64,000 bases of DNA from Bacteroidia bacterium. Lineage in GTDB: Bacteria; Bacteroidota; Bacteroidia; Flavobacteriales; Flavobacteriaceae. Of the stretch, positions 22,655-64,000 are shown in pieces; position 1 is the stretch's first letter, and each line of letters begins with the position of its first letter. Position numbers and translations under genes: made by a program. Location of the stretch: NCBI GenBank assembly GCA_030427865.1, contig JAUICK010000001.1:525507-589506 (forward strand). The letters run 5' to 3'. Below the pieces are notes generated by a model, which saw nothing but the letters and a program-made list of their open reading frames with translations, had not been told where the DNA came from and ran no database searches.

Positions 22655-23395
22655 ATGAATTTAACACTTAAAATTTGGAGACAAAAAGACTCAAACACAA
22701 AGGGTCAAATGGTAGATTATAAAGTGACTGATATTTCAGAACACATGTCTTTTTTAGAAATGATGGATGTTTTGAACGAACAATTAATTGCAAAAGGAGA
22801 AGAACCAATCGCTTTCGACCACGACTGTAGAGAAGGTATTTGTGGTATGTGTTCTATGTATATTAACGGAGAAGCACATGGACCAGATAGAGGTATTACC
22901 ACTTGTCAGTTACACATGCGTATGTTTAAAGATGGAGATACTATTACAATAGAACCATTTAGAGCAGCAGCATTTCCAGTAATTAAAGATTTAGTGGTAG
23001 ACAGAACTGCCTTTGATAGAATTCAGCATGCAGGGGGATATATTTCTGTAAATACTTCTGGTAACACACAAGATGCAAATGCAATTCCTATTTCTAAAGA
23101 AGCAGCAGATACAGCAATGGATGCCGCTACTTGTATTGGTTGTGGTGCTTGTGTAGCAACCTGTAAAAACTCATCAGCAATGTTGTTTGTAGGCGCAAAA
23201 GTATCTCAATATGCTTTATTACCACAAGGGCAAGTAGAAGCAGCAGATCGTGTAAAAAACATGGTAGCACAAATGGATTTAGAGGGTTTTGGAAACTGTA
23301 CTAATACAGGAGCTTGTGAGGTAGAATGCCCTAAAGGAATTTCTTTAGACAACATTGCAAGAATGAATAGAGAACTAATGAAAGCTTCTATTTAA
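22655..23395 (+). CDS. sdhB: Succinate dehydrogenase/fumarate reductase iron-sulfur subunit
   Basis: [37 protein letters not shown]. Confidence 0.97.
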
Positions 23396-23412
23396 TAATT
23401 GATATCATTTCG

Positions 23413-23608
23413 AGTTCGAGGCAATACTTCGCTATCGCTACGTTTTGCCTCGAACGTGTGGCGGCTAACGCCAAAGTCCTTGACAACACTCCGCTTCGCT
23501 TCGTACTGCCAAGAACTTCGCCTATAGCTTATTTTGACTCAACCAAGATATTTTCATATCTTGATTCTCGCAAAACAAGCCATAGCCGCCACACGTTATT
23601 TTCGAGTT
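23413..23608. repeat. Structured dispersed repeat, copy 1 (full length?)
   Basis: 23413-23540 identical to 63873-64000; 15-bp perfect inverted ends AACGTGTGGCGGCTA (23453-23467)/TAGCCGCCACACGTT (23583-23597); 10-bp hairpin at 23415-23454; GC-richer than the surroundings. Confidence 0.9.
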
Positions 23609-23697: not shown

Positions 23698-23973
23698 CTA
23701 TTCTATATCTTTAAAAAAATCTTTTGGCGAAATTTCTAACTTATTTAAAATAAGTAATAAACGTTCTAAATCTAATTTTGTTTGCCCTTTAATTACTTTA
23801 AAATAACCGTTTTCAGTTAAACCCAAATAAGCTGCAATTTCAAAACGACTAATATTAACTGCTTTTCTTTTTTCTTCTATAGCTGTTAAAATGGTTTTGT
23901 AAAATTCTAGTATTCTTTCTCTTTCTCTTTCTCTTTCTCTTTCTCTTTCTCTTTCTCTTTCTCTTTCTTTCAT
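23698..23973 (-). CDS. Small HTH (XRE-like) transcriptional regulator with N-terminal (ER)9 tract
   Basis: MK(ER)9ILEFYKTILTAIEEKRKAVNISRFEIAAYLGLTENGYFKVIKGQTKLDLERLLLILNKLEISPKDFF; start taken at the ATG before the repeat tract. Confidence 0.75.
   Translation of the reverse strand: MKERERERERERERERERERILEFYKTILTAIEEKRKAVNISRFEIAAYLGLTENGYFKVIKGQTKLDLERLLLILNKLEISPKDFFKDIE
23914..23967 (-). repeat. Hexanucleotide microsatellite, 9 perfect copies (GAAAGA on coding strand)
   Basis: TCTTTC x9 on + strand, in frame inside the HTH gene. Confidence 0.97.
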
Positions 23974-24025
23974 AATGTATTTTCTTTTTCTATGTAAAAA
24001 TAAGAAAAAAATACATTTAAAAATC

Positions 24026-24093
24026 TTCCATTTTGGCATACCCGAAAACAGTGAGTTTTTTATATCACTGAAAATGGGTATGCCATAATGGAA
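24026..24093. repeat. Long imperfect palindrome upstream of the HTH gene
   Basis: TTCCATTTTGGCATACCC (24026-24043) / GGGTATGCCATAATGGAA (24076-24093), 17/18 pairs, with inner CAGTGA (24049-24054)/TCACTG (24065-24070). Confidence 0.85.
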
Positions 24094-37646: not shown

Positions 37647-38072
37647 TTATTGTTTCGTGAGGATTACATTTCTTGTTGATGATAAAGCGTAAATTATGGT
37701 TTGATTATTAGTTCCTTTGCTAAACTCATAATTACTAGTTAAGGGACCGTTTGATAAAATCTTTAATTCATATTTATTTGATGTTATAACTTCATCTACT
37801 GATATTACTCCTGCATTCACACCATCTTGCAACCCCTCTTTTAAGTTTGTGACAACAGTTGTGTTGTCAGAAGAAATGTCTAACAAGTTATCGTTTGTGA
37901 ATTGAAAGCCACCAATTTGTGCCCAATCTGGGTCAGTTTCATCTAACCAAGTTCCAATAATCCAATTTGGTGGATTTATAAAATTATTAGATTCAATATT
38001 GTCATCATTACCACTACAAGAAACTATGCTTAGCGTTAAAGAAAAAAGAAGAATTAATTGTATTTGTTTCAT
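37647..38072 (-). CDS. Lipoprotein, hypothetical
   Basis: LTLSIVSCSG lipobox; PPNWIIGTWLDETDPDW. Confidence 0.7.
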   Translation of the reverse strand: MKQIQLILLFSLTLSIVSCSGNDDNIESNNFINPPNWIIGTWLDETDPDWAQIGGFQFTNDNLLDISSDNTTVVTNLKEGLQDGVNAGVISVDEVITSNKYELKILSNGPLTSNYEFSKGTNNQTIIYALSSTRNVILTKQ

Positions 38073-38129
38073 ATCTTAAAAGTTAAAAGCCTCAGAAATT
38101 AATTAATTTCTGAAGCTTAAAATAGTTTT

Positions 38130-38697: not shown

Positions 38698-39501
38698 TTA
38701 ATCGTGATAAATTAATTTAAGCCTCTTTTCAAACTCTTGTTTGTAGGTGTTTTTTACTTTTAATGTTCTACCCATAATTGAAATTTGTGAACCATTTATA
38801 CGACCTTGTAACATTTCTGGAGAAAGATTTACAATATAACTTTCGTTTATTCTTATAAAGTTAATAGGCAAATGTTTTATCATTTCTTTGAGAGAGGATT
38901 TTAAAAAATAGTATTCATTATCAATGGTTTGAAACCATAAATAATTTGCTCTTAAAATTTCTTCTTCATTATTTTGATTTACAAATGGTTTTATGGTAAA
39001 AAAAGCAATATTTTTAAAAAGAACAGGAACTCTTGTTACACCACCTTTTCCATATTCTTTTACAGCATCTAAATAACCAACTAAACCCATAACAGCATCT
39101 TTTTGAGCGCTTAATTGGTTTTCTTGTTTTTTATGCAATACTGTATGAATAGCACGAGTTACATCTTCTATATTTAACCTGGGTTTTGTTTTTACAATAT
39201 AGTTTTCGTGGTTAGTATGTAACCCTTTTTGAAACGTGATATCATCATCAAATTCGGTAACATAAATAAAAGGGATTTTGTATTCTTTTTGAAGTATTCT
39301 ACCTAAATCTATCCCATCTTTTTTTCCTTGTAAATCTATATCAAGAAGTACCACATCTGGTGTGTTTGTTTTTATTCTTTCTATAGCTTCGTCATAACTT
39401 TTGGTGTATTCATCTACAGTAAAACGTTGTCTTACTAATGCTCTGCGTAAACGTTCATATAAGGCTGGTTGGTCTTCTACAATTAAGATATGCGCTTTCA
39501 T
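38698..39501 (-). CDS. LytTR-family response regulator
   Basis: HILIVEDQPALYERL, DVVLLDIDLQGKKDGIDLG receiver; C-terminal LytTR HLPINFIRINESYIVN. Confidence 0.88.
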   Translation of the reverse strand: MKAHILIVEDQPALYERLRRALVRQRFTVDEYTKSYDEAIERIKTNTPDVVLLDIDLQGKKDGIDLGRILQKEYKIPFIYVTEFDDDITFQKGLHTNHENYIVKTKPRLNIEDVTRAIHTVLHKKQENQLSAQKDAVMGLVGYLDAVKEYGKGGVTRVPVLFKNIAFFTIKPFVNQNNEEEILRANYLWFQTIDNEYYFLKSSLKEMIKHLPINFIRINESYIVNLSPEMLQGRINGSQISIMGRTLKVKNTYKQEFEKRLKLIYHD

Positions 39502-57565: not shown

Positions 57566-59236
57566 TTAGTTTTTTATTTTTTTAATAGTAATAGTACTGG
57601 CTTTGTAACCTATTCTGTGAGCAATAGTGTACAAAAACTTTCCTTTTTCTACAGAAATAGGTGTGCTGTACAATTTCCATGCGCTATTAAAATTTAATTT
57701 TTCTTTAGCTTTATCTGAAATTAAATAAGCAATTGAAGCGCCTTTTGTTTTAGACGATAAAGAAATCTTATTATCTTTAAAAGAAATTTCTACTTCTTGT
57801 GTTTTAGGTTGCGTATTGTTTGGCCACATAGATGCTATCATTTCCGATTCTGGAGTAAAAGCTAAATCAGGTCTGTTCGCATAATGGTCTTTTAGGGTAT
57901 TTCTCATTTGGGTTAGTATTGATTTATAGTTTGGATTTTCGGATAAATTATTTATCTGATAAGGGTCTTTTTCTACATCATACAATTCTTCGTTTGTTTT
58001 TGTTTTAAACCAAATTTGTTGCGTATTATTTAATTTCTTATTGTCTCTTAACTCCAGAAAATTAGACATCATGGGTATGTTTTTTCTGTAGCCTAAATCT
58101 TTATATTTTGTTAACTTAGGAAAATCATTTCTTAAATACAGGTATTTTTTACTTCTAACCGCTCGTATTCTATCTGTAAATTCATCAAATCTATCTGAAG
58201 AGGCATACACAAACTTTCTAGGTTTAGCTTTATATTTTCCTAAAAAAGCAACTCCTTCCATATATTCTGGGGGTTTTACACCTGCTAAACTTAGCATTGT
58301 GGGTGCTAAATCTACAAAAGAAATTAATCGATCTGTTTTACCTATTTTTCCATCAATTCCTTTAATTAGAAAAGGAACTTTTAAACCAGAATCGTAAATT
58401 TCTCTTTTTTGCCTAGGTAAAGGCCCACCATGATCGCTATAAAAGAAAATTATAGTATTATTATATAGCCCATCTTCTTTTAATTGATTTATGATTTTGG
58501 CAACTTTTTTATCCATTAACTCAACATTACTGTAATGTCTGGCAACTGTGTTTCTTGTAGCATTATTGTCTGGTAAATAAGGTGGTACAGGAACAGTTTC
58601 TGGATCTACAGTTAAAGGTAAATCTTTATTTCTCCATAAAAAACTTTCGTGAGAAACATCAATATTAAAAACAGAAAAGAAAGGTTTGTTTTTTGGTTTG
58701 TTGCGCCAATGTGCGTTTTTATTATTTTGATCCCAAGCAGTTACAGGAGCAGAAAACTGGTAATCTGTTTTGTAATTATTTGTGGTAAAGTAACCAGCAG
58801 CTCTTAAGTATTCTGTATAGCACTTTACGTTTTCTGGAATAACAGCAGAATATTGTCTAATGTATTTTCCAGAGATGTCTTTAATATTTACACTGTCTTT
58901 ATATACTTGTCTGCCTTTAGAAAACACATCGTGTGCAGCTCTCATGTGCATGGTTCCAATAGATGTTGGGTACATTCCTGTAATGATAGTAGATCTACTT
59001 GGTGCACAAACCCCTACAGTTGTAAATGCGTTATTATAAACTAAACTTTCTTTAGCTAATTTATCTAATGCAGGGGTTTTTGCTGTATTGTCTCCATAAA
59101 AAGATAGGGTAGGACTTATATCTTCTGTGGTTATCCAGAGAATATTTGGCTTTTTATATTCTTGTAATGTTATTTTAGTTTTATTGCATGCTGTTAATAT
59201 GCAAATTGTTAGTATGAGTAAAGTTAGTTTTTTCAT
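57566..59236 (-). CDS. Sulfatase (type I arylsulfatase family)
   Basis: PNILWITTEDISPTLSFYGD, VCAPSRSTIITGMYP (C-x-P-S-R), YSDHGGPLPRQKR. Confidence 0.92.
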   Translation of the reverse strand: MKKLTLLILTICILTACNKTKITLQEYKKPNILWITTEDISPTLSFYGDNTAKTPALDKLAKESLVYNNAFTTVGVCAPSRSTIITGMYPTSIGTMHMRAAHDVFSKGRQVYKDSVNIKDISGKYIRQYSAVIPENVKCYTEYLRAAGYFTTNNYKTDYQFSAPVTAWDQNNKNAHWRNKPKNKPFFSVFNIDVSHESFLWRNKDLPLTVDPETVPVPPYLPDNNATRNTVARHYSNVELMDKKVAKIINQLKEDGLYNNTIIFFYSDHGGPLPRQKREIYDSGLKVPFLIKGIDGKIGKTDRLISFVDLAPTMLSLAGVKPPEYMEGVAFLGKYKAKPRKFVYASSDRFDEFTDRIRAVRSKKYLYLRNDFPKLTKYKDLGYRKNIPMMSNFLELRDNKKLNNTQQIWFKTKTNEELYDVEKDPYQINNLSENPNYKSILTQMRNTLKDHYANRPDLAFTPESEMIASMWPNNTQPKTQEVEISFKDNKISLSSKTKGASIAYLISDKAKEKLNFNSAWKLYSTPISVEKGKFLYTIAHRIGYKASTITIKKIKN

Positions 59237-60987
59237 TTAATATTAATTTTTAGAGTACCTCTGTGTTTGGGCAATACTTTAAAAGTTCCTTTTTTTATTT
59301 TTCCATTTTCTACAAATTCATATTGGTAGGTTCCAAAAAATCCACGTCCTTTAACCAAACCATTTTTATCTGTTGTACCCAGAAGATTAGTTTTCCATTT
59401 ATCATGTACTAAAGAAAAATAAGCTTTTCCCATTGCTCCTTTACTCCAATCTTTTTTAAAAATATCTACTTTTTTTCTATCATCTTCTACGAAACCCCAG
59501 AATAGAAATTCTGTAACACTTGGGTGGCTAAAAGCTGCTATCATAAAATCTTTGGTATATTGCTCTCTTATTTTTGGTTCTTGAATATCCATTGTAAATT
59601 CAGAAATGCTAATTTGTTTGCCTAAAGTAGCATAATACCCTAATAATTCTAAAACTTTTTCAGGTGGTGTTAGGTCTGAACCAATATGACTTTGAATACC
59701 AATACCACTTACTAAACCATTTGTATTTTCATCAATTCTTTTTATAAAATTATAATACCATTCTTGCTTTTTAGTATCTAACCCCCCTTTGCTAATAATA
59801 CCATATTCGTTGGTAAAACGTTTTGCATTTGGTTGCAATTCTTTTGCTGTTTTAAAACCATTGTAGAGTATTTGTTCAGAGCCTGTTATTTTTTGTAAAT
59901 CTTTGTTTGTATAGGCTTCGTTAACAACATCCCAATGAGAAATTTTATTTTTGGTAAGTTTTAAAAGGCCGGCAACATGGTTTTCTATTAATTCTGTAAC
60001 TTTTTTAGGATTGTCTTTGTTTTTTTTAATTTCTGGAGTTAAATAGTTAAAACCAGGCCATATTAAAACATGTCCCTTAATTTGTATTTTGTCTTTTTTT
60101 AGAATATCAATGGCTTTTATGACTTGGTCTTTCTTTTTTTTCCAGCGTAAACTCTTGATTTTTAGGTCGTTTTCAAAAACAGCTAAGTCAAATGTTTTTT
60201 TAAAATTCTTGTATTTTTCGTTATTTGCTATAACATCTTTTGCATTTATAGCTGCTCCAAAAGGAAAAAGATGTTTTTTTAGACGTATTCTTAAGGTTTT
60301 GTTTGCAATTGGTAAGTTGTTTTTTGTAAACTGAAGCTGAAAATTACCTTTTCGAATTATTTCTATTCTTTGCAACGCTTCTTTTCGCCACTTGGCATCT
60401 ACTTGTATACCTTTATAGACAATTTGTGTTTTTGGTAGCGACTCTAATTTTGTTCCTTCAGGGAAAATTTCAAATTTTACGTTTTTTAAAAGAAAAGCTT
60501 GAGGTTTAAATCCATAGTGAAATACTATACTTAAATCTTGTTTTGCAATATTTATATTTGATTGAAAGGGTATATAATATGTTTTCCAATTTGAGGATAA
60601 ACTCTGTGTAGAAACTAAATTGTTTTTGTAAGATTTAGATTGTTTAAATAGTAAATTTAATTTTGCTTCTCCAGTTTCTAAACTGGATGCCACTGTTTTT
60701 GCTGAAAAAGAAAGTAAAAAAGCAGTGCCTTTAGATACAAACTGTTTATAAATTGGTATAGCAGTAGCACTTTTATAAATAAATTTTGGCTGAGTATGTG
60801 TTTCTATTTTAAACACAAGGTTTTCTTTAACATTATTATTTACAAGCGTTATTTTGCTAAATTCTGAATTAGTTTTTATAAATTTCAGTCGTTCATAATT
60901 CACAATATTTTTACCTTTTATATCACTTTTTTGAGAAAATAGTAACAAAGGAAAAGATAAAATAATGACAAATACAAGTTTTTTCAT
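59233..60987 (-). CDS. GH10 endo-1,4-beta-xylanase with N-terminal CBM-like region
   Basis: IKGHVLIWPGFNYL, HWDVVNEAYTN (acid/base), ISISEFTMD (nucleophile); start taken at MKKLVFVIILSFP. Confidence 0.9.
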   Translation of the reverse strand: MKKLVFVIILSFPLLLFSQKSDIKGKNIVNYERLKFIKTNSEFSKITLVNNNVKENLVFKIETHTQPKFIYKSATAIPIYKQFVSKGTAFLLSFSAKTVASSLETGEAKLNLLFKQSKSYKNNLVSTQSLSSNWKTYYIPFQSNINIAKQDLSIVFHYGFKPQAFLLKNVKFEIFPEGTKLESLPKTQIVYKGIQVDAKWRKEALQRIEIIRKGNFQLQFTKNNLPIANKTLRIRLKKHLFPFGAAINAKDVIANNEKYKNFKKTFDLAVFENDLKIKSLRWKKKKDQVIKAIDILKKDKIQIKGHVLIWPGFNYLTPEIKKNKDNPKKVTELIENHVAGLLKLTKNKISHWDVVNEAYTNKDLQKITGSEQILYNGFKTAKELQPNAKRFTNEYGIISKGGLDTKKQEWYYNFIKRIDENTNGLVSGIGIQSHIGSDLTPPEKVLELLGYYATLGKQISISEFTMDIQEPKIREQYTKDFMIAAFSHPSVTEFLFWGFVEDDRKKVDIFKKDWSKGAMGKAYFSLVHDKWKTNLLGTTDKNGLVKGRGFFGTYQYEFVENGKIKKGTFKVLPKHRGTLKINIK

Positions 60988-60991
60988 TAGG

Positions 60992-62398
60992 TTAAAATTT
61001 AGATTTCCAATCATTTAACTCGCGTAATAAATTTTTGGTTAATATGGGTTTTTCTTCAGATAAATCATTAGATTCTGATAGATCTTTAGAAATGTCGTAC
61101 AATTCTGTTCTGCCTTCTTTATACCAATTTATTAATTTATAATTTCCCTTTCTAATTGCTGATGATTTTGTGTCTCCAGTATTAACAGGTCTTGCTTTAG
61201 ACGAATGCCAAAAAACGGTTCTATCTGTCCATTTTTCATCATTTTTAAGAACGGGTAAAAAACTTTTACCATCTGTATTTAAAGATTTTTTTGCAGTGAT
61301 GTCTAACACCGTAGGAAAAATATCCATTAGCATAATTAAAGATTCATTGTCTTTTTTTGGTGTAAAATGATTTGGCCATTTTACAAAAAGAGGTACTTTA
61401 ATCCCGCCTTCATACAACCAACCTTTTCCAGCCCTTAAAGGAAAGTTTGAGGTTGCTAAATCTCGTTTTTTAGTACCATCATTAGACAAACCTCCATGGT
61501 CTGAAGAAAATATAACTATAGTGTTATCATCTATCTTTAAATCTTTTAATAATTGCATTAGTTTACCAACATTTTCATCCATAGTTTCTACCATAGCAGC
61601 ATATTTTGGATGATTTTGACGCATTTTAGTTCTTCCTGTGCCTTCTTTTATAAATTGGGGTAGATTGCCAAAATCGAAATTTTTAATTTCTTCTTTATTT
61701 CTTGCAATATCTTTCTCTTTTGCTTCTAATGGTTGATGCACTGCATAAAAAGAAAACATTGCCATAAAAGGTTTGTTTTTATCTGCATTTTTAATGTATT
61801 TGGCAACATTATTGGTCATCACATCCATTAAATAATCGCCTTTTTTACTAACGTTATCTACATCTGGAATTGGAGATTTTTTAGATTTTCCTTTTTTCCA
61901 TTTAGATTTATTAAAAGGATACAAAAAACTTATGGGAGAACCTGCATGACCTGCTGCAAAGCTATAATCATATCCAAACTCTTTTAAACTTTCTTTTTTG
62001 CCTAAATGCCATTTGCCAAAATAAGCTGTTTGATAACCAGCAGATTTAATGTTTTTAACAAAATTTTTGTTATCTGCAACATTAATCATTTTAAAACCAT
62101 CATCTGGAACATCTCCATCTTTAATAGGGTAATTTCCTGTCATCATTGCATATCTTGAAGGGACACATCTTGGATAATTAGCGTATGCATTTAAGAAAGA
62201 AATCGATTCTTTTGCCAATTTATCAATATTTGGAGTTTGGTATATTTTTGACCCATGAATACTTAAATCATGATACCCCAAATCATCCACATGAATAATT
62301 AAAATATTGGGTTTTTTAAGAGAATTGGAGCTGGGTATTTTATTTGTTTTACAAGAACTAAAAACGATAATAAAAAAGAGGATAAAAAATCTGTTCAT
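60992..62398 (-). CDS. Sulfatase (type I arylsulfatase family), lipoprotein
   Basis: NILIIHVDDLGYHDLSIHGS, PRCVPSRYAMMTGNYP (C-x-P-S-R), IFSSDHGGLSNDGT; FSSCKTN lipobox. Confidence 0.93.
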   Translation of the reverse strand: MNRFFILFFIIVFSSCKTNKIPSSNSLKKPNILIIHVDDLGYHDLSIHGSKIYQTPNIDKLAKESISFLNAYANYPRCVPSRYAMMTGNYPIKDGDVPDDGFKMINVADNKNFVKNIKSAGYQTAYFGKWHLGKKESLKEFGYDYSFAAGHAGSPISFLYPFNKSKWKKGKSKKSPIPDVDNVSKKGDYLMDVMTNNVAKYIKNADKNKPFMAMFSFYAVHQPLEAKEKDIARNKEEIKNFDFGNLPQFIKEGTGRTKMRQNHPKYAAMVETMDENVGKLMQLLKDLKIDDNTIVIFSSDHGGLSNDGTKKRDLATSNFPLRAGKGWLYEGGIKVPLFVKWPNHFTPKKDNESLIMLMDIFPTVLDITAKKSLNTDGKSFLPVLKNDEKWTDRTVFWHSSKARPVNTGDTKSSAIRKGNYKLINWYKEGRTELYDISKDLSESNDLSEEKPILTKNLLRELNDWKSKF

Positions 62399-62410
62399 AA
62401 TTATAAAATG

Positions 62411-63553
62411 CTAATTATTTATAAGTTTTTTAATGCTGTTGTATGCTGGTGTTGGTTTTAAATCTTTACCGTAAATAGATTGAAAATAACCTTTATCTTT
62501 TCCATATCTTATACCTAAATCCCAAAGATTTAAAGAAACAAATCCGTTTTTGCTTTTTTCTTTTAAAACAGCTATAATTTTTTGATATACTTCTGCTTGT
62601 ATTTTTCTTTCTGCTGTTAAGTTTTTAAGATTATTTTCTTTAACTAAATAGTCTAATTCAGTTAGATGGAATTCTAAATTATTTTGATGAGCCCAATCTA
62701 TAAGATTACCAAGTTTTTTTAAAGTTGTATCTATATTATCTACAAAATCTTTTCTTTTTGCTCCTAAAAGTAAGTGACCTTGCCAACCAAGCCCATCTAC
62801 TCTGTGTCCTTTAGAACGCAAGTATAAAACGGTTTTTTTTATTTTGTTCCACATTTTATCTTCCATTCCTGCATTTTGATTAAACACTAATTTTACATTT
62901 GGTGCATGTTTGGTTGCAATTTCAAAAGCTTTTAAAATGTATAGAGGAAATCCATTTTCATCTAAACCTATTTTTAACCATGGATTTTCCCATTTATCTA
63001 TTCCTGGTTTAGGACCATGCCATTTACCATTAGATAATACAGTTTCGTTAACAACATCCATCCAAATTACGTTTGGATGATTATTGTATTTTTTGGTAAA
63101 GGCAGTCATAAAATCAATAAGAATTGAATTGAGTTCTTCTGCTGTTCTATCATCTTTTTTTACCCACCAAGAAGCTTGCGGACTTATAGGACCATGAAGT
63201 CTTACAGCAGTATTATTTTTTTTGGCAAATGCTAAAAAATCGTCAGTATGTTTCCAATTCCATTGATTTGGCAATGGATGAATAATTCTTTGTTTGGATG
63301 CATTTGCTGGTGTTAAATACTTAAAATCTTTTAAAAAAAGTGTTTCTTTTTTTGTGTTTAATTCTTTATGGTTTAAAGTTGCACCAATTAATAAAGAATT
63401 TGTTTTTAGGTTGTTTACATTTATTTTTTTAATACTATTTTTAGATGTTGCACAACTTACAAGTAGTGCCCCCAAAGCCCATAAAAAGAAAAATGCTTCA
63501 TACGTAAGTTTCTTATATATGAAATCATATAAATTGCATTTTCTTTTTGTCAT
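62411..63553 (-). CDS. GH10 endo-1,4-beta-xylanase, lipoprotein
   Basis: VRLHGPISPQASWWV, VIWMDVVNETVLSNGKWHGP, EFHLTELDYLV; GALLVSCATS lipobox. Confidence 0.9.
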   Translation of the reverse strand: MTKRKCNLYDFIYKKLTYEAFFFLWALGALLVSCATSKNSIKKINVNNLKTNSLLIGATLNHKELNTKKETLFLKDFKYLTPANASKQRIIHPLPNQWNWKHTDDFLAFAKKNNTAVRLHGPISPQASWWVKKDDRTAEELNSILIDFMTAFTKKYNNHPNVIWMDVVNETVLSNGKWHGPKPGIDKWENPWLKIGLDENGFPLYILKAFEIATKHAPNVKLVFNQNAGMEDKMWNKIKKTVLYLRSKGHRVDGLGWQGHLLLGAKRKDFVDNIDTTLKKLGNLIDWAHQNNLEFHLTELDYLVKENNLKNLTAERKIQAEVYQKIIAVLKEKSKNGFVSLNLWDLGIRYGKDKGYFQSIYGKDLKPTPAYNSIKKLINN

Positions 63554-63560
63554 TAAATAT

Positions 63561-63884
63561 TTATTTTTTGATCACTTTTTTAAATACTATGCCATTGCTG
63601 GTTTTTATTTTTAATAAATATACCCCAGCTTTTAAATTCTTAATATTTATTTTAGAGTTTTTTATATTAGAAAAAGAGCGTATTTTTTTTCCAGAGATAC
63701 TGTAAACAATAATAGATTTAAGTGCGTTTTCTGTTTTTATATAAAGTAAACCATTAGTAGGAATAGGATAAAATTTTACAGATACCTTATTGCCTTTTAC
63801 AGATAATGCCTTGTTTTCTGATTCTATAACTGTAACAGAAAACCTTTTTGCGTTAAAGGTATTGATAACATTAGTTCGAGGCAA
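63561..63884 (-). pseudogene. Truncated T9SS C-terminal sorting domain; 5' portion replaced by the structured repeat
   Basis: VSVKFYPIPTNGLLYIKTENALKSIIVYSISGKKIRSF...GVYLLKIKTSNGIVFKKVIKK; only start codon (TTG) and residues MPRT lie inside the repeat; frame stays open into the repeat to the window edge. Confidence 0.65.
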
Positions 63885-64000
63885 TACTTCGCTATCGCTA
63901 CGTTTTGCCTCGAACGTGTGGCGGCTAACGCCAAAGTCCTTGACAACACTCCGCTTCGCTTCGTACTGCCAAGAACTTCGCCTATAGCTTATTTTGACTC
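63873..64000. repeat. Structured dispersed repeat, copy 2 (truncated by window end)
   Basis: 128 nt identical to 23413-23540 in the same orientation. Confidence 0.97.

Follow-up and report, generated by a model that had tools for sequence, protein, structure and literature searches.

A gene-less palindromic repeat in a Tenacibaculum genome and its probable spread by an integron-like system

A palindromic repeat present at two loci of a 64,000-nt stretch of a Tenacibaculum genome (referred to here as the window) is probably a minimal cassette without a gene, spread, apparently by recombination, through an integron-like system into cassette arrays as well as into ordinary chromosomal sites.

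The preliminary description of the window had reported a 128-nt identity, and positions 23413-23540 and 63873-64000 were indeed the same at every base and on the same strand (100% in BLAST). As to how far this identity extends, 128 nt is no biological length: the window and contig C18 end at one and the same base (589506 of the contig), so the number merely marks where the assembly stopped within the repeat. The intact repeat continues to 23598 and spans ~185 bp (GTTCGAGGC...CCGCCACACGTTA). This complete copy (copy 1; 23414..23598, + strand) is supported by BLAST, by its sequence, and by empty sites in relatives, and copy 2 (63874..64000, +), identified from BLAST and contig ends, represents the first 127 nt of the element, truncated by the end of C18. 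The repeat consists of a 42-nt hairpin, H1 (23414..23455, +), followed by a 145-nt attC-like palindrome (23453..23597, +). H1 is an inverted repeat with a start (GTTCGAGGCAA...) complementary to an R''-like end (...TTGCCTCGAAC), as in gene-bearing cassettes, with ~20 nt and no gene between them. The palindrome runs from AACGTGTGGCGGCTA to TAGCCGCCACACG followed by TT, its outer arms are complementary at 15/15 positions, and the putative crossover lies between G and TT (G/TT); its predicted fold was -39.1 kcal/mol for the bottom strand vs -28.7 for the top. Single-strand folding of the repeat compared with shuffles gave z = -5.6, which together with 13 strong BLAST matches (95-100% identical) in the host genome argues that the repeat is not a chance sequence.

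Copy 1 is located 3' of the sdhB stop codon (sdhB, 22655-23395) and 5' of a hairpin (CCCAAAA...TTTTGGG) with the appearance of an sdhB terminator. It is flanked by a 7-nt direct repeat, TTTCGAG (23408..23414 and 23600..23606, both +, read from the sequence), which could be a target-site duplication or could have pre-existed. The direct repeat was seen at copy 1 only, and no target duplication of the kind expected of a transposable element was constant across the copies. Near copy 1, an open reading frame (ORF) resembling an HTH regulator (23698-24039, -) carries an N-terminal Glu-Arg run encoded by ~11 CTTTCT/GAAAGA hexamers, an in-frame, length-variable repeat and possibly a slippage hot spot. 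Genes resembling xylanases and sulfatases form a cluster ahead of copy 2. By their translations, the minus-strand genes that adjoin it (57566-63553) are two arylsulfatase-like and two GH10-xylanase-like genes, a content suggestive of a sulfated-xylan utilisation locus.

BLASTN against the host genome revealed copies beyond the two loci in the window, about a dozen near-identical copies or fragments in total; the count is based on the 13 strong places in this sequence search, further BLAST matches being self-complementary or weak. Flanks of the copies were unrelated and shared no homology. The preliminary description had named copies found only at these loci, or a larger segmental duplication, as grounds against its reading, and neither applies. 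The repeat was found at the starts or ends of contigs C35 (both ends), C25, C24, C38, and C5, as expected if contigs break within a repeat that the assembler is unable to traverse; overlaps of 30-56 nt between C5 and the left-type contig ends did not single out which contigs belong together. Among the remaining copies, that on C12 was truncated (65 nt), and those at C25:4358-4603 and on C20 were inverted in orientation or nested. At C25:4358-4603 and C20:84571-84880 the H1 hairpin is shared with a typical attC-like site that points the other way, and C25:4358-4603 contains a nested partial duplication.

Outside this genome the repeat was absent from 59 relatives, 35 of them from the same genus, and a search of 400 family genomes returned one 26-nt, chance-like match only. 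Neither pattern nor similarity scans located copies in GTDB contigs, viral contigs, plasmids, or phages, and the sdhB intergenic region corresponding to copy 1 was empty in 11 relatives. The earlier suggestion of recent mobility is supported by this empty region and by near-identical copies at unrelated sites, and that of a recombination site by array copies that lie in phase as cassettes, whereas a conserved RNA function, also suggested, found no support: an Rfam scan gave chance matches only, with no relevant family, and relatives lack the sequence.

The three contigs that carry several repeat copies (C35, C25, and C38) are arrays. On C35 and C25 (1-4.6 kb), genes are mostly single, on one strand, and separated by palindromes of 131-198 nt with the form NNNNAAC-AACG-TGTATAATTAATTGC ... 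GCAACTAATCATACA-CAANNACG-TTNNNN. Products of the C35 cassettes include a DRT4-type defence reverse transcriptase, type II methyltransferases, and HNH and SwaI-like restriction enzymes. Circularisation of cassettes would predict that the start of each is complementary to its own end and not to the end of its neighbour. In 328 cassettes, the complementary run between start and end after GTT had a mean of 5.7, vs 1.0 with ends shuffled among all cassettes and 1.9 with ends shuffled within loci, and the rule held for most of them. Cassettes without an ORF were common (103 of 326 lacked an ATG ORF of at least 60 aa), and the longest ORF was on the array strand in 214 of these 326 and on the opposite strand in 9.

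Within the arrays on C35, C25, and C38, the repeat occupies one unit of the tandem one-gene cassettes, in phase. Copies C35a, C35b, and C25a start exactly at the GTT that closes the preceding attC-like palindrome, and the TTNNNN start of the following cassette directly abuts the final G of C35b, C35c, and C38c. Since the repeat obeys the start/end complementarity rule with so short a body, it is best described as a cassette without a gene. Another copy (C38:88873-89057) is inserted base-precisely within a different attC-like site, and excising it restores AACAATGGCTATAAGTAATTG, which is intact in a nearby unsplit site (C38:84669-84800). The latter is recognised by the attC-like model and ends in the same CATAGCCGCCACACGTTG as the right end of the repeat. 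In the copy at C38:88873-89057, palindrome correction has made the right arm an exact duplicate of the left. The attC model R1 finds no match in the repeat's own palindrome, even at E = 10, so its assignment as attC-like rests on position and architecture, not on sequence homology; its outer arms are perfect, without the unpaired spacer present in other attC-like sites.

A covariance model built from 15 attC-like sites of this genome identified 47 sites in it. At related loci, every match lay on the recombinase strand (257/257 in 20 regions 3' of the recombinase in other species and 187/187 in 80 GTDB loci, or 444/444 over all 100 loci), and nhmmer found no match in 607 kb upstream of the recombinase vs 157 in 275 kb downstream. 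The stem covaries strongly: across 150 aligned sites, 98.3% of its cells were paired, with 245 double changes, and 0/500 shuffles reached as high; the alignment is itself fitted to structure, but shuffled controls and those with a slid stem (21-47% paired) were far off. Two A.C mismatches (G.T on the complementary strand) are conserved in 142/150 and 149/150 sites, and the bottom strand was predicted to be the more stable in 146/150. In the R boxes, compared with RYYYAAC/GTTRRRY, AAC is essentially invariant, GTT is present in 148/148, and the next base is R in 148/148, with later positions not limited to RRY.

In the host genome, a 389-aa tyrosine recombinase gene adjoins pnp (identified by its sequence) on contig C29. 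A search of this complete-grade genome for integron integrases found no IntI over the cut-off, and the best match was the C29 recombinase, which scores 229 against a cut-off of 220 with the NCBIfam model 'tyrosine recombinase/integron integrase' and falls below the cut-off of the integron integrase model TIGR02249 (197 bits vs 265). Its 3' side carries an attI-like sequence and then two cassettes; the second is present in duplicate at the contig end. The attI-like ATATAACNNG occurred just past the recombinase stop codon in 18 of the 19 loci examined, followed by TT in 17, an arrangement that corresponds to the attI next to an integron integrase gene.

The recombinase family lacks the additional domain (patch III/I2) specific to IntI. 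The KGxKxR and HxLRH motifs are 58 residues apart in 21/21 members of the family and 100 apart in 7/7 IntI of the same phylum, the latter measured only in the seven proteins with unambiguous motif location. About 42 residues with the integron-integrase-specific domain are thus missing from all 21 measured members, and residues 183-242 of the IntI4 structure 2A3V have no counterpart. In a tree with IntI and two Xer-like proteins of the same genome, the family formed its own group outside IntI, on long branches and with few outgroups toward Xer. XerA/XerC-type tyrosine recombinases (NF040815; PDB 4A8E, 5HXY) gave the best sequence and fold matches, sharing the catalytic and core-binding domains, and IntI4 was next best; unlike them, the flavobacterial recombinase is linked to cassette arrays and has an N-terminal extension. 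This extension of ~80 residues (L060:1186-1440) had a sub-threshold HARP match (best Pfam value 6e-5, below cut-off) and weak XPB/HARP fold matches (E 0.05-0.7), a resemblance that offers a lead toward branched-DNA recognition and no more. Because the additional domain has served to select or define IntI in surveys (PMC2426708, PMC9668308), this family would escape them. With the recombinases of Winogradskyella, Algibacter, Lacinutrix, and Patiriisocius, that of the host shares 68-77% identity, against only ~50% with most of its own genus (L162-L167), making horizontal transfer of the platform likely.

Of 80 genomes from the genus, 50 contained relatives of this recombinase, and among 300 Flavobacteriaceae genomes (≥95% completeness) the recombinase was present in 199 and attC-like sites in 270. 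Where at least 3 kb of downstream sequence was available, the recombinase preceded an array in 27/34 GTDB loci, as it did in the Tenacibaculum regions fetched. The attC-like model is not promiscuous, since it found sites in only 45 of 248 genomes of a phylum sample. In a sample of 393 GTDB Bacteroidota genomes, canonical IntI passed the curated cut-off in 107, far above older surveys, with no Flavobacteriaceae among the matches listed. With the flavobacterial model, eight attC-like sites were also detected in Polaribacter phage P12002L (E < 1e-3), some around DNA methyltransferase genes. In this lytic phage, two sites of 62-64 nt (38032-38093 and 38876-38939) flank a DNA methylase gene. P12002L has a published CALIN, of which one attC was recombined by IntI1 on its bottom strand and not its top (PMC9892861); the overlap between our sites and the published ones is by phage only. 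Unlike the flavobacterial arrays, this CALIN is phage-borne, and no recombinase was reported with it.

These arrays resemble sedentary chromosomal integrons such as the Vibrio superintegron in having a recombinase gene with an adjacent attI-like site and long arrays in which the cassettes share one orientation and mostly hold a single gene, with many defence genes and with gene-less cassettes. Their end sites, like integron attC, are palindromic with AAC...GTT boxes and a conserved stem that folds better on the bottom strand, the strand on which integron attC sites recombine, marked by extrahelical bases (PMC2727003). They differ in that the two conserved A.C mismatches stand where attC has extrahelical bases, in a start/end complementarity of about 10 bp, in GTTR instead of GTTRRRY, and in a recombinase that carries the extra N-terminal domain and lacks the IntI-specific one. 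Gene-less cassettes of Vibrionaceae (PMC11014356) likewise have an attC and no ORF; the window repeat has a far shorter body than these and occurs in many near-identical copies, also outside arrays. By analogy with the Vibrio cassettes it may supply a promoter or terminator to its neighbours, and a promoter scan gave two weak sigma-70-like matches touching the repeat, near chance level.

In the mechanism that we propose, the recombinase would excise cassettes as circles by working on the bottom strand of the attC-like site in its folded form, with a cut at G/TT deduced from the junctions only. The circles would then re-enter at attI or another attC-like site and, more rarely, at chromosomal G/TT-like sites, and a circle of the repeat would carry the junction ...CACACGTTCGAGG... 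Copies 1 and 2 both lie outside arrays and are therefore best read as off-array insertions at secondary sites. The TTTCGAG duplication at copy 1 is not predicted by simple site-specific insertion at G/TT, and, along with the copies outside arrays, the truncated C12 copy, and the failure of the attC model to detect the repeat, it favors an independent MITE- or REP-like palindrome moved by an unrelated transposase and landing in cassette borders by chance. We consider such an element unlikely, given that the array copies hold the cassette register at both ends, that H1 follows exactly the cassette rule, that the right end of the repeat is identical to that of a model-recognised site, and that the target duplication is not constant.

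Exchange of array cassettes with chromosomal repeats through homologous recombination or gene conversion, in place of a site-specific process, would fit the near-perfect identity of the copies and the palindrome-corrected arm of one of them (C38b). It is very improbable in view of the unrelated flanks, the corresponding intergenic regions that are empty in relatives, and an insertion within another attC-like site that is precise to the base. Equally little credence, if not slightly less, is due to the proposal that the arrays are ordinary integrons (CALINs) served by a canonical IntI elsewhere, with the linked recombinase incidental. The frequency of IntI across the phylum and the ability of IntI1 to recombine a P12002L attC speak for it; against it stand the host genome and the listed matches for Flavobacteriaceae, both devoid of IntI over the cut-off, the position of the linked recombinase ahead of the arrays, and the attI-like site directly 3' of it. 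Spread of a gene-less cassette by the integron-like system thus remains our preferred reading.

More tentatively, Flavobacteriaceae might hold a distinct type of integron: its Xer-like recombinase, lacking I2, a helix that has been discussed as an adaptation to single-stranded sites (PMC4792948), would act on folded single-stranded attC hairpins, perhaps through its N-terminal HARP/XPB-DRD-like domain on branched DNA, and gene-less cassettes would leave the arrays and become dispersed along the chromosome. Earlier work reported Bacteroidetes to be nearly free of integrons, with nothing beyond In0 elements and a single complete integron from Salinibacter ruber (PMC9024848), and none was reported by IntegronFinder in a Tenacibaculum genome (PMC10013915). 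With the cassette recombinase in two thirds of the sampled Flavobacteriaceae genomes and attC-like sites in 90%, the system, if active, would be a large overlooked platform for gene exchange in major marine bacteria, an earlier description in preprints or subscription journals being possible. Its cassettes include defence genes (DRT4 and restriction-modification), and it makes testable whether the additional domain of IntI is truly needed to recombine folded single-stranded sites.
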